A stretch of DNA of 64,000 bases from contig WGLS01000019.1 in assembly GCA_016125455.1 (NCBI GenBank), forward strand, positions 40,369-104,368, in the 5' to 3' direction. Source of the DNA: Alphaproteobacteria bacterium (GTDB lineage Bacteria; Pseudomonadota; Alphaproteobacteria; Caulobacterales; Parvularculaceae). Below the pieces are notes generated by a model. It was not told the DNA's origin. It saw only the letters and a list, made by a program, of their open reading frames with translations, and did no database searches. The position numbers and the translations under genes were made by a program. This document shows, one piece after another, positions 50,084-58,209 of this stretch. Numbering within the stretch: the stretch's first letter is position 1; every line of letters begins with the position of its first letter.

Positions 50084-52552
50084 TCACTCCGCCGGCTCAA
50101 GCGACCTGGCGACACGGAAGCCTTTTCCACCGTCCCGGACCTTCGGGCCGCTCCTGCCGCGAAAGGCGGAGCGGAGGTCCTGCAGTCCGCGGAGCCAAGA
50201 GCCGCCGCGGGTCAGCCGGAAACACTCCGTATCCGATGTATCGCTTGAGTTGACCGGAGGCGGGCCGGGATTGCGGCGATAACAATCTTCGACCCATTCA
50301 GAGACATTGCCATGCATGTCATGGAGGCCAAATGGGTTAGCGGGGTAAGCGCCGACAGGCGCCGTGCGGCCAACGATAAAACCGAAATTGGCGTAATCAG
50401 GGCGCGCTTGGCGGCCCCACCAGTAAGCCGTCGTTGTGCCCGCCCGGGCCGCATATTCCCACTCATGCTCCCATAAGAGGCGGTAGGGCGATCCCTCGAC
50501 CTTTGAATTTAGCCAGGCGACATAGTCCTGGGCGTCGTTCCATGAAACAAGGGTGGCCGGGTGACGGCCACGATCCTCGTCTTGGTAGCTTGGCGTATGC
50601 GAAGCCCGCTCGCAGCCGCCGTTTGCGACGCATGCCTCCCATTCCGCGACGGTGACTTCGTACTTGCCGACGGCGAAGGGCGCGACCGTCAACCGTCGCA
50701 TCGGCCCTTCGTTGGGGAAGCGCCCCGGTTCGTCGGTCGGGGAGCCCATCGAATAGGTCCCGCCTGGCAGAACCACCAGTTCGGGGCAGCCCTCGCAATC
50801 CCGTCCTTTCGCGATCACCTGACCGTTGAGATACGGCGCCGGGGGTAGAATGAGACGGCGCTCCTCCGCCAGGTGATCATTGTTCGCGATGGGAACGGCG
50901 CGCAGCGCCAGGAATGCGACAGCGCCCATGAGCGCGATCAGACTCGCCGCGAGGCCTGTAAGCCCCAGCGCCCACCCCCGCAAAACCCGAGCGACGCCAG
51001 AGAGCCAGCTTTCGCCTTCATGGCGTTTTAGCGGCGCAATGAGGTCGGTCGATGCGCCGTCGGCCTCCAGCCGCTCTTTGACTTGATCCGCAATGACATC
51101 GGCGATCTCCCGGTGATCGAAATAGGTCGTGTGGATCAGCGCCTCCCAGGTCATCGCGTCTTCGGCGATTTCCCGAACGACCTCGTTCTGGTCGGCGTCG
51201 ACGGCGAACACGCCGGATTCATATTTGCCGAAGAGGGCGAGGCGCGTCTCCATCGAGTCAGCGCGCAGGCGCTCAGCGAGTTCGCCGTCCAGGACGAGCG
51301 GTTTCGTGCCGAATCGGTGCGAACGCGAAGAGACGTTGCCCGGATTGTGGTCGCCGTCCCGGCCGAAGGCGATGCCCTTCATTGCGCCGCCGACCGCCCG
51401 GTTCAATGGTCCGCGGCCGAGCTGTTCAAGACCGATGAAGGCGAACGTGCGATAGAGGAGATAGACGGCGACGAAAATAACGGGCGAGCCGGCGACGCCG
51501 AACAGGATCATCTGCTGCGCGATCGCTTCCAACGGCGCAGGCCCGAATCCGTAGGGCGGAAATTCAGGCGTCTGATCGAGATAGCGTTCAAGGCCCCAGT
51601 CGGCCGCTAAGGCGATCAAGCCCAAAACGGGCAGCATAAAGACCGCCCGCACGCCCCAAAGGACCCCGCCGGTACGCGAGCCGCGCCAGAGCGAGCCGCG
51701 CGCGAAGGGCTCAATGGGGAGCGCCTCGACCCGTTGCAGGAACGAGATCGCTTCGTCGAGCGGATGCCAGATGGAGAAGAGGCCGGCCTTCGGACGGCGG
51801 CGGCCGGCGCGCCTGATCCGCATCAGGCCGCGCCAGGCGATTGGGACGATGAAGATGAGCGCGACCAGGCCCGCGACGCCGACGCCGGTCAGCCAAGTCG
51901 CAATAACACCTTTGATTGCTTCAGCTTCTTGAACGCTATTTACAAACGAGCCGCGATCCAACCGTTCAAGCAGCGATTTCGGCGCGGCGATCAGGACCGC
52001 AACAAGCGCTGTGCTGAACAACGCCATGGCGAAAAACGCCCTCGCGCCGACGCCTTCGGCCAACGACACGCCGGATCGGAAAAACGGCGTCCCGACGGTC
52101 GATATCGAACGGAGGCGAAAGCTGGCCCTTGTATCCAGAAGGTGTTGCGGCTCAAACATCAGGCGTTTCAGCCAGCCCCAGCGCGTTCGCGAAGCAGGCG
52201 CGCCGCCGTTCCACGCCATCATCGCTGCGGCCTCGTCGGCGACATTGCCGCCATGGCTGTGGCCGATGACGTGGAGGCTGTCGTACTCCTTGGCGAGTTG
52301 GCGCAGCTTCTTGGCGAGCGCTCGCGCAGCCTCTTCGCGCGCCGTCGCGCTGTTCGCGCCGGACCAGATCAGCGGATGGATATCGGCCGCAACGCCGCGC
52401 GCCGCCAGTTCTTCGATCAGCCAGCCAGAAAACTCAGATCCCCGCTGCCACCATTTCGCGCCGTCCGGCCCGGGCTGACTGTCGCCCGTCCCGTGCACCG
52501 TGATCACGCCTGCGCGTTCGGTCGCCTTCGGCTTCGCTTCTTCCGCTTGCAT
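50084..52552 (-). CDS. Alpha/beta-hydrolase, multi-pass membrane, FGE-like domain fusion protein
   Basis: This is an 822-residue three-part protein. Residues about 10-150 form a serine hydrolase region with GVITVHGTGDSQPG and the nucleophile elbow VIGHSHGGN (Ser99). About five hydrophobic helices follow (for example FFAMALFSTALVAVLIAA, VGVAGLVALIFIVPIAW, GLAASLIALMGAVAFLAL). The last 230 residues are an FGE-sulfatase-like domain: VVLPGGTYSMGSPTDE, HPATLVSWNDAQDYVAWL, EHEWEYAARAG, NPFGLHDMHGNVSEWVED, RLTRGGSWLR, GKGFRVARS. The two catalytic cysteines of true formylglycine-generating enzyme are absent from the RGGSW segment. ATG 52552 is chosen with GGGGGGAAAG upstream; ATG 52675 would overlap the divergent gene. 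The function is unassigned. Confidence 0.85.
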   Translation of the reverse strand: MQAEEAKPKATERAGVITVHGTGDSQPGPDGAKWWQRGSEFSGWLIEELAARGVAADIHPLIWSGANSATAREEAARALAKKLRQLAKEYDSLHVIGHSHGGNVADEAAAMMAWNGGAPASRTRWGWLKRLMFEPQHLLDTRASFRLRSISTVGTPFFRSGVSLAEGVGARAFFAMALFSTALVAVLIAAPKSLLERLDRGSFVNSVQEAEAIKGVIATWLTGVGVAGLVALIFIVPIAWRGLMRIRRAGRRRPKAGLFSIWHPLDEAISFLQRVEALPIEPFARGSLWRGSRTGGVLWGVRAVFMLPVLGLIALAADWGLERYLDQTPEFPPYGFGPAPLEAIAQQMILFGVAGSPVIFVAVYLLYRTFAFIGLEQLGRGPLNRAVGGAMKGIAFGRDGDHNPGNVSSRSHRFGTKPLVLDGELAERLRADSMETRLALFGKYESGVFAVDADQNEVVREIAEDAMTWEALIHTTYFDHREIADVIADQVKERLEADGASTDLIAPLKRHEGESWLSGVARVLRGWALGLTGLAASLIALMGAVAFLALRAVPIANNDHLAEERRLILPPAPYLNGQVIAKGRDCEGCPELVVLPGGTYSMGSPTDEPGRFPNEGPMRRLTVAPFAVGKYEVTVAEWEACVANGGCERASHTPSYQDEDRGRHPATLVSWNDAQDYVAWLNSKVEGSPYRLLWEHEWEYAARAGTTTAYWWGRQARPDYANFGFIVGRTAPVGAYPANPFGLHDMHGNVSEWVEDCYRRNPGPPPVNSSDTSDTECFRLTRGGSWLRGLQDLRSAFRGRSGPKVRDGGKGFRVARSLEPAE

Positions 52553-52663: not shown

Positions 52664-53086
52664 ATGCGCATCCATGTCCTCATCGCCATCGCCCTGTCCG
52701 CCATCGCCCTTGCGTCCTGCGCTTCGGGAGAAAAGGGCGCGCCGGGCCTAGCTGACGGGCGGCTCAGCCCCTGTCCGTCGAGTCCGAACTGCGTGGTCTC
52801 GGAGGCGGGCGCCGACGAGAAGCACGCGGTCGCGCCGCTGCCCGCCGAGGCGTGGGCGGAGGTGCCTGCGGCGGTCGCCGACCTGGGCGGAACGGTCGTC
52901 GAGCAGACCGACGACTACATTGCGGCGGAGTTCAAGAGCCGCATCTTCCGTTTCACCGACGACGTCGAGTTCCGCCTTGCGGACGACGCCGTGCACGTCC
53001 GCTCCGCCTCGCGCATCGGCTATTCCGACATGGGCGTGAACCGCAAGCGCGTCGAGGCCCTGCGCGCGGCGCTTGCCGGCGAGTGA
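52664..53086 (+). CDS. DUF1499 lipoprotein
   Basis: This 140-residue protein has a lipoprotein signal (MRIHVLIAIALSAIALASCASG, Cys19). The DUF1499 core reads LSPCPSSPNCVVSEAGADEKHAVAPL, then GGTVVEQTDDYIAAEFKSRIFRFTDDVEFRLADDAVHVRSASRIGYSDMGVNRKRVE. The family is widespread but uncharacterised. ATG 52664 is divergent from the fusion protein start at 52552. Its last 67 bases overlap the 3' end of the convergent acyltransferase gene. Confidence 0.9.
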   Translation: MRIHVLIAIALSAIALASCASGEKGAPGLADGRLSPCPSSPNCVVSEAGADEKHAVAPLPAEAWAEVPAAVADLGGTVVEQTDDYIAAEFKSRIFRFTDDVEFRLADDAVHVRSASRIGYSDMGVNRKRVEALRAALAGE

Positions 53087-57528: not shown

Positions 57529-57813
57529 ATGGCCGACGACAAGAGAACCGAAGGCATGGGCGAAGACGCCCGCGCCTTTGCGCCAGGCCGCACGCTGAAG
57601 CTGCGACCGGTCGGGAACTCTGTGGGGGTCGTTCTGCCTAAGGATCTGCTGGAGAAGCTTGGCGTTGGCGAAGGCGATGAACTCAGCGCGCAGATAACGC
57701 CGGATCATGTCTTGACGTTGAAAGTTACCTCCAAGGTCGAGCGTCAGGCCCGCGAATGGATTGATCGCGGCGCGAAGAAATACCGCGAAACGCTGCGCGT
57801 CCTTTCGAAATAG
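57529..57813 (+). CDS. AbrB/MazE-family antitoxin of a Doc module
   Basis: This is a 94-residue protein. The swapped-hairpin DNA-binding core reads LKLRPVGNSVGVVLPKDLLEKLGVGEGDEL, typical of AbrB/MazE/SpoVT antitoxins. A charged C-terminal tail (SKVERQAREWIDRGAKKYRETLRVLSK) probably wraps the toxin. GGAG lies eight bases before ATG 57529. It is followed 12 bases later by the doc-like gene. It should repress its own promoter through the iterated operator immediately upstream. Confidence 0.88.
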   Translation: MADDKRTEGMGEDARAFAPGRTLKLRPVGNSVGVVLPKDLLEKLGVGEGDELSAQITPDHVLTLKVTSKVERQAREWIDRGAKKYRETLRVLSK

Positions 57814-57825
57814 GGCGCGGCTCCC

Positions 57826-58209
57826 ATGGACTGTATCTGGATAACGCGAGACATCGCGCTCGCCGCGCACGCCCGCAGCCTCAAGGACCATGGCGGGGCC
57901 GACGGCGTGCGCGACGAAGGCATGCTCGACAGCGCGCTCGCCAGGCCCCAGAATCTGGCCGCCTATGGCGATCCCTCCGTGTTCGAACTGGCGGCGGCGC
58001 TCGCCTATGGCATCGTCAAGAACCATCCGTTCGTCGACGGCAACAAGCGGACGGGCTTTCTGTCCGCCTACGTCTTCCTCGGCCTCAACGGGTGGGAGCT
58101 TGAGGCCGGGCCCGATGAGGCGGCGGCGATCACCATCGACCTCGCGGCGGGCGAGATCGGCGAGGGTGACGTCGCGCGCTGGCTCGAAGCGAATTCGGCG
58201 CCGGTATAG
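57826..58209 (+). CDS. Doc-type Fic-fold toxin
   Basis: This is a 127-residue death-on-curing family protein. The active-site motif HPFVDGNKRTGF (His67, Asp71, Asn73, Lys74, Arg75) is the Doc variant of the Fic motif. Doc phosphorylates elongation factor Tu and stops translation. RDEGMLDSALARPQNLAAYG and ALAYGIVKN are standard Doc blocks. All key residues are present, so the toxin should be active. It is coupled with an AbrB-type rather than the Phd-type antitoxin of phage P1. Confidence 0.92.
   Translation: MDCIWITRDIALAAHARSLKDHGGADGVRDEGMLDSALARPQNLAAYGDPSVFELAAALAYGIVKNHPFVDGNKRTGFLSAYVFLGLNGWELEAGPDEAAAITIDLAAGEIGEGDVARWLEANSAPV

Follow-up and report, generated by a model that had tools for sequence, protein, structure and literature searches.

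The window analysed here is a stretch of 64,000 nucleotides (contig WGLS01000019.1, positions 40,369 to 104,368 of the forward strand) from a member of the Parvularculaceae, whose draft genome consists of 37 contigs and is 96% complete (genome G000). On its minus strand, at 50084..52552, lies a gene for a protein of 822 residues that joins a predicted serine hydrolase, membrane helices and a C-terminal domain resembling formylglycine-generating enzyme (FGE). Coordinates are those of the window, and all parts of the gene are on the minus strand. An upstream ATG at 52675 is an alternative start that would give 863 residues; the 822-residue start was favoured based upon relatives that begin near it and a purine-rich stretch just upstream. 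Protein searches found 153 matches, and among the 120 listed both halves were present in 18 (window protein counted) and the hydrolase half alone in 102. Fifteen further two-half proteins were aligned with the window protein (38-62% identity), and comparison with the copy in a second genome (G020) over 789 codons gave 218, 187 and 439 changes at first, second and third positions, respectively. The frame was considered to be a real gene because these two-half relatives align with it and because the changes relative to the G020 copy fall mostly at third codon positions.

The hydrolase is encoded in three parts, which were delimited using an AlphaFold model and its superposition on lipases. The first (residues 12-160, 52073..52519) contains an HGT motif (residues 20-22) and the nucleophile elbow GHSHGG, with the predicted catalytic serine Ser99 (codon at 52256..52258). 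The second (residues 250-285, 51698..51805) contains a strand (253-262), a DEAI motif and the predicted catalytic acid Asp266 (51755..51757), and the third (residues 380-496, 51065..51415) contains the motif LIHTTYF and the predicted catalytic histidine His474 (51131..51133). Four transmembrane helices (TMs), located by Kyte-Doolittle hydropathy and helical in the AlphaFold model, form two hairpins set within the hydrolase: TM1 (residues 172-190, 51983..52039) and TM2 (221-239, 51836..51892) between the Ser99 and Asp266 parts, then TM3 (297-315, 51608..51664) and TM4 (348-366, 51455..51511) between the Asp266 and His474 parts. Conservation of the triad was counted in an alignment of 82 rows, drawn from the 120 listed matches and not chosen by motif. 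Ser99 and Asp266 were each conserved in 80 rows and gapped in two, and His474 was conserved in all 82. An initial annotation of this DNA had described one frame with a GHSHGG hydrolase, about five helices and a C-terminal FGE-fold domain, and the model, the hydropathy profile and the conserved Ser, Asp and His bear that description out.

Despite the hairpins, the hydrolase model superposed on LipA-type lipases in VIA-align, on which the fold claim is based; the hydrolase rows lay within 1-2 Z of one another, which gives no choice among lipase, carboxylesterase and acyl-protein thioesterase. The hydrolase fold that the initial annotation had expected at the N terminus is thus predicted by the structure model. 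The model predicts an alpha/beta fold whose three segments come together around both TM hairpins, and with this canonical fold and Ser, acid and His in order the window protein falls within the alpha/beta hydrolase superfamily. The order Ser-Asp-His is usual for LipA-type and carboxylesterase alpha/beta hydrolases. These enzymes (3d2c, 1isp, 1auo, 6nkc) have the fold in common with the window hydrolase, but their chains of 171-218 residues leave no room between the catalytic parts for a pair of TM hairpins. The window protein remained under the curated Pfam lipase and esterase cut-offs (Thioesterase 16.8 vs 26.4, Lipase_3 14.6 vs 22) as well as those of Mbeg1-like (14.5 vs 21.1) and DUF900 (10.9 vs 20.5), and no NCBIfam or Pfam model matched the hydrolase above cut-off. 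Individual relatives were narrowly above one Pfam cut-off each (L020 for Lipase_3, P0022 for Mbeg1-like, P0053 for Abhydrolase_6). A PDB profile search from the stand-alone hydrolases gave weak lipase matches (best E 0.004). Foldseek with the full model returned only FGE-fold entries among its top 50, and with the model of a stand-alone hydrolase it returned one match at E <= 0.001. The hydrolase forms a separate family, as judged from the 102 of 120 listed relatives without an FGE part, from its eight copies in G000 and from the long inserts in ten of 35 measured relatives (below).

Four TMs precede the His motif in 25 of 30 stand-alone relatives and none follows it in any of the 30, and five TMs lie ahead of the FGE domain in 15 of 16 fusions (threshold 1.6). 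TM5 (residues 538-556, 50885..50941) is the extra helix of the fused forms, and its orientation was assigned by helix counting. The three hydrolase parts were placed on one side of the membrane because the triad must assemble there. At the ends of the TMs, the mean share of Lys and Arg was 0.30 in the loop between TM2 and TM3, 0.11 before TM1 and 0.12 between TM4 and TM5, and lower between TM1 and TM2 (0.05) and between TM3 and TM4 (0.03). By the positive-inside rule, the three high values are those expected of a cytoplasmic hydrolase. Cysteines are absent before TM5 of the window protein and number six after it; each of the 16 fusions has six or eight in its C-terminal part, and the N-terminal part has none in seven of them. 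PvdO, the nearest relative of the FGE part, is active in the periplasm according to an excerpt of PMC6206403. Helix count, charges, cysteines and periplasmic PvdO favour a model in which the hydrolase is cytoplasmic and the FGE part periplasmic. The initial annotation had proposed this topology from an odd number of helices, and the one-sided assembly of the triad lends it further support.

The FGE-like domain (residues 584-819, 50096..50803, six cysteines) is predicted to be periplasmic. In the segment GGSWLRGLQDLRSAF of the window protein the GGS motif is not followed by the two active-site cysteines, as the initial annotation had noted, and the FGE cysteine motif was found in 0 of the 18 fused proteins. 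A true FGE was ruled out on the missing cysteine pair; a separate two-cysteine FGE-like protein sits beside sulfatases. Also in agreement with the initial annotation, no sulfatase was found close to the window gene, and the three sulfatases of the genome are all on another contig (C3). There, an FGE-like protein with both cysteines (L024:5219-6175) adjoins two of them and is likely the true FGE of the genome. PvdO (5hha, pyoverdine maturation) is the nearest solved relative of the window domain and likewise lacks the FGE cysteine pair where the two align. It was solved as a separate protein, whereas the window domain is part of a fusion and scores 168.7 bits against the NCBI PvdO (dihydropyoverdine dehydrogenase) model, far under the equivalog cut-off of 500. 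Many proteins of these bacteria named as formylglycine-generating enzyme family may not be FGEs. One protein carrying this annotation, P0009 of Parvularcula sp. IMCC14364, begins inside the hydrolase region and is without the cysteine motif.

Two further proteins of G000 have the FGE module behind a TM. One of them, L015, is a clear TIR protein (TIR_2, E 9.9e-27), and the N terminus of the other, L014, is unnamed by Pfam. TIR-like N termini matched the TIR ones in a profile-profile comparison with a probability of 99.2 over 120 columns. In the sample of the window's family, 27 open reading frames (ORFs) had at least 150 residues before the FGE domain (the G020 hydrolase fusion excluded), with exactly one TM there in 26; all 27 matched the TIR or TIR-like profile, of which 15 are themselves rows. 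A search with L015 as query found 3834 proteins among 7997 scored. Among the 120 listed, a TIR Pfam domain was present in 81 (the query itself being TIR), exactly one TM lay ahead of the FGE domain (from residue 100 on) in 106 and none in 14, and the two-cysteine motif occurred in one. These TIR-TM-FGE proteins of Parvularculaceae and relatives ("SUMF1/EgtB/PvdO family") resemble the window protein in having an N-terminal domain, a TM and a PvdO-like FGE domain that opens with a Cys-x-x-Cys-Pro type motif; they differ in their TIR or TIR-like output, where the window protein has a hydrolase, and in having, in 26 of the 27 family ORFs, one TM before the FGE domain. The window protein thus has a one-chain effector-TM-FGE layout (a layout, not a described family), with its two ends on sides of the membrane that are predicted to be opposite. 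Eight TIR-like N termini (L014, L118, L123, L127, L128, L167, L168, L114) seemingly lack E73, invariant in seven TIR rows, and keep the TM-FGE layout. We take E73 to be the catalytic glutamate of the TIR rows, and the L014-type domains may be non-enzymatic TIR derivatives. The topology drawn by the initial annotation stood, and its account was incomplete: the four helices that interrupt the hydrolase, the likeness to PvdO and the same module on TIR-type proteins of the genome had been missed.

Eight hydrolase copies were found in G000 (the window gene and seven paralogues), and a further genome of the family (G015) has about as many, fragments counted. From the window's family, 36 hydrolase ORFs were selected by an ordered triad motif, so that triad conservation and Ser-Asp-His order are there by construction; most L rows of set A5 were selected in the same way. 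In 24 of the 36, the Ser-Asp and Asp-His intervals contain exactly two TMs each and no TM follows His; the rest are off by one or two. The TM3-TM4 loop of the window protein (51512..51607, 32 residues) is predicted to be periplasmic. The largest gap between TMs after Asp was measured in 35 of the 36 ORFs (L157 had too few TMs) and ranged from 2 to 560 residues, with 260-560 residues in ten; the long-insert ORFs show an interrupted profile match at about model positions 270-320. Pairwise comparison of the inserts showed that L018 and L144 are 60% identical, that L136, L149 and L141 are related, and that L019, L133 and L155 are weakly linked to these. The inserts of L017, L021 and L145 matched no other insert at E 1e-3, and none of the inserts compared matched the FGE profile. 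One paralogue of 1064 residues (L017:5174-8368, on contig C20 of G000) has WD40-like repeats between TM3 and TM4 (E 7e-10), a predicted periplasmic WD40 domain. Three others (L018:4268-6736, L019:3716-6070, L021:5302-8199) have about 330-460 residues in the predicted periplasmic TM3-TM4 region and no Pfam domain there. The hydrolase family was present in at least 18 of 120 genomes sampled from the order (two families) and at least three of 240 sampled from the class, own genome included in both; the class survey scored at most six candidates per genome, and the counts are lower bounds.

With moderate confidence, the window protein is read as a one-chain transmembrane receptor in which the predicted periplasmic FGE-like part would control a lipase- or esterase-type hydrolase predicted to lie at the cytoplasmic face. 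The hydrolase core would be mostly a stand-alone membrane enzyme, multiplied in some Parvularculaceae and fitted with different periplasmic parts in the TM3-TM4 loop or, in the window protein, behind TM5. The FGE-like domain would act as a binding module rather than an enzyme and would bind a periplasmic cue; TM5 would pass this binding on to the hydrolase at the cytoplasmic face of the inner membrane and alter its activity at the inner leaflet. The substrate would be a membrane-located acyl ester or thioester, either an inner-leaflet lipid or an acylated protein. A receptor is suggested because varied outside parts on one inside enzyme, together with one outside part on two outputs, form a receptor-like pattern. 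More tentatively, the window protein may represent a class of receptor-hydrolases with a Toll-like-receptor-like layout. These would be built on a lipase-type enzyme around two membrane hairpins and have periplasmic sensors pluggable at two sites, the TM3-TM4 loop and behind the fifth helix. The FGE-like sensor would be common to the TIR receptors, such that one kind of signal could lead to either output.

Several observations weigh against the receptor reading. Around TM5 of the window protein, three Lys or Arg residues were counted in 30 flanking positions of the TM4-TM5 loop and five after TM5 (including the protein's end), which leaves its direction undecided, and one to five cysteines occur in the N-terminal part of nine of the 16 fusions. 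The full fusion is rare: the same architecture was indeed found in other genomes, and the two halves occurred together in three of 60 sampled genomes of the window's family. In one of these loci (G015), an in-frame stop between TM3 and TM4 interrupts the fusion gene. Several of the large inserts are mutually related and therefore represent fewer independent events than ten. The FGE domain retains the conserved core of its family and could be an enzyme like PvdO. Finally, the hydrolase has a function independent of an FGE sensor, because stand-alone hydrolases of other, mostly alphaproteobacterial, genomes are often beside housekeeping genes (119 neighbours at 20 loci).

The retained core bears on a two-enzyme reading, in which the FGE-like domain would carry out, in the periplasm, an oxidation like that of PvdO or some other reaction of the FGE superfamily, and the hydrolase, at the cytoplasmic side, would serve the same pathway. 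We regard this as quite unlikely given the missing FGE cysteine motif (18 of 18 fused proteins), the low PvdO score and the same kind of module on TIR-type domains. PvdO's own chemistry is unsettled, and in the excerpt of PMC6206403 the purified protein was inactive and without detectable cofactor.

The neighbours bear on a housekeeping reading. They were counted at 20 of 26 stand-alone loci (L026-L051), the other six being omitted since their hydrolase was missed by gene calling, and included chorismate synthase (8), class I methyltransferase (8), AMP-binding (7), PNPOx (6) and TIR_2 (3). The window gene itself is near lptF/lptG and genes for an M17 aminopeptidase, a DUF1499 protein, an acyltransferase and a LytTR protein, with an LptD-like frame seen by eye further out. 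Of nine matching genomes in the order sample's second family (f155), eight have a single copy of the hydrolase. These recurring neighbours and single copies would suit an envelope enzyme for constant turnover of inner-membrane lipids or acylated proteins, whose FGE-like domain serves only as an anchor to a periplasmic partner and carries no signal. Such an enzyme seems unlikely here, considering that the hydrolase is multiplied in some genomes of the window's family, that large inserts occur in 10 of 35 ORFs, that an FGE module also carried by TIR-type proteins looks like sensing, and that neighbours differ among the three fusion loci. Within three called genes of the stand-alone hydrolases, at three of the 20 loci, TIR-TM proteins with other C-terminal parts were observed (L029:5323-6369, L033:5226-6776, L040:5525-7660).

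A conflict reading was raised by the fusion locus of G020, which is flanked by an integrase and an NYN protein (PADLOC HEC-09) and, at its opposite end, by ResIII, PDC-S11 and a type III methylase. Here the FGE-like domain would recognise a product of an invader (phage or competitor) in the periplasm and the unleashed hydrolase would harm the cell's own membrane. Sister FGE modules are partnered with TIR, and excerpts of PMC7159879, PMC10907252 and PMC9612521 propose FGE-fold domains of conflict systems as invader sensors or list them as effector parts, the first two discussing FGE and C-type-lectin-fold domains in these roles; PMC7159879, in its excerpt, also has alpha/beta-hydrolase domains paired with caspase-like ones. 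The conflict-system FGE domains in these excerpts are on NTPase-centred systems and often diversified by reverse transcriptase as targets of diversity-generating retroelements (DGRs), whereas no reverse transcriptase (RVT_1) match was found in the draft genome G000, with the control positive in three of 14 genomes. A DGR-diversified sensor was rejected on this result. A defence-island gene was also rejected as shown, with only one of three fusion loci island-like; the window gene has Lpt, aminopeptidase and acyltransferase neighbours, and the G015 locus has BlaI-like and sucC/sucD-like genes (by eye). PADLOC 2.0 models matched the window protein in 0 families at E up to 1, and among the 119 neighbours of stand-alone relatives they matched singly except for mad2 (10 of 119). 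Of the readings weighed, a conflict receptor is held to be the most doubtful. FGE-like immunity proteins of the type VI secretion system (T6SS) have reportedly been described by Lopez et al. in 2021. No VasE/TssK match was found in G000 (control positive in one of 14 genomes), an absence that speaks against self-protection in a T6SS-immunity-like role, though not against guarding.

Both halves were placed in quick trees with SH-like approximate likelihood ratio test (SH-aLRT) support only. The hydrolase tree, with 80 of the 82 rows (P0009 and P0018 were too short), put 15 fusions in one group (SH-aLRT 90) and one other, P0017, beside a stand-alone protein (99). In the FGE tree, P0017 fell within a set of 13 rows (96), the others being TIR-type or short, unresolved rows, and the remaining fusions formed two sets (92 and 99), with the fork that joins them left open. 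From these branchings, two or more separate joinings of hydrolase and FGE are likely, and the FGE part of the 15 grouped fusions may come from more than one source. The FGE-tree labels were assigned by crude regular expressions and include errors (L015, clearly a TIR protein, as TIR-like; the fusions L131 and L103 as other). L131:7089-9482 is the stop-interrupted fusion gene of G015, and its C-terminal 476 residues are annotated as a formylglycine-generating enzyme family protein.

No description of a TM-split hydrolase with an FGE domain was found in the open-licence PubMed Central (PMC) literature, and neither there nor in Pfam, NCBIfam or PADLOC did a characterised family of such architecture turn up, in keeping with the initial annotation's view of it as a candidate for an undescribed system. 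An excerpt of PMC3501461 reports metacaspase-FGE fusions, in which an enzyme is likewise joined to an FGE domain (33 sequences), including a cyanobacterial variant with two TM helices between. Their output is a cysteine protease and the helix number of that variant is even, whereas the window protein has a hydrolase and an odd number. An effector joined to an FGE-fold sensor is already known as a kind, and the hydrolase is a new type of output. If the receptor reading is true, a membrane-split serine hydrolase is added to the outputs linked in bacteria to FGE/C-type-lectin-fold sensors, and the window protein offers a small, testable one-protein system for studying signal transfer from the periplasm to an enzyme. 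Elsewhere in the window, at 57529-58209 on the plus strand, a MazE-type antitoxin is followed by a Fic/Doc protein, likely a toxin-antitoxin pair.
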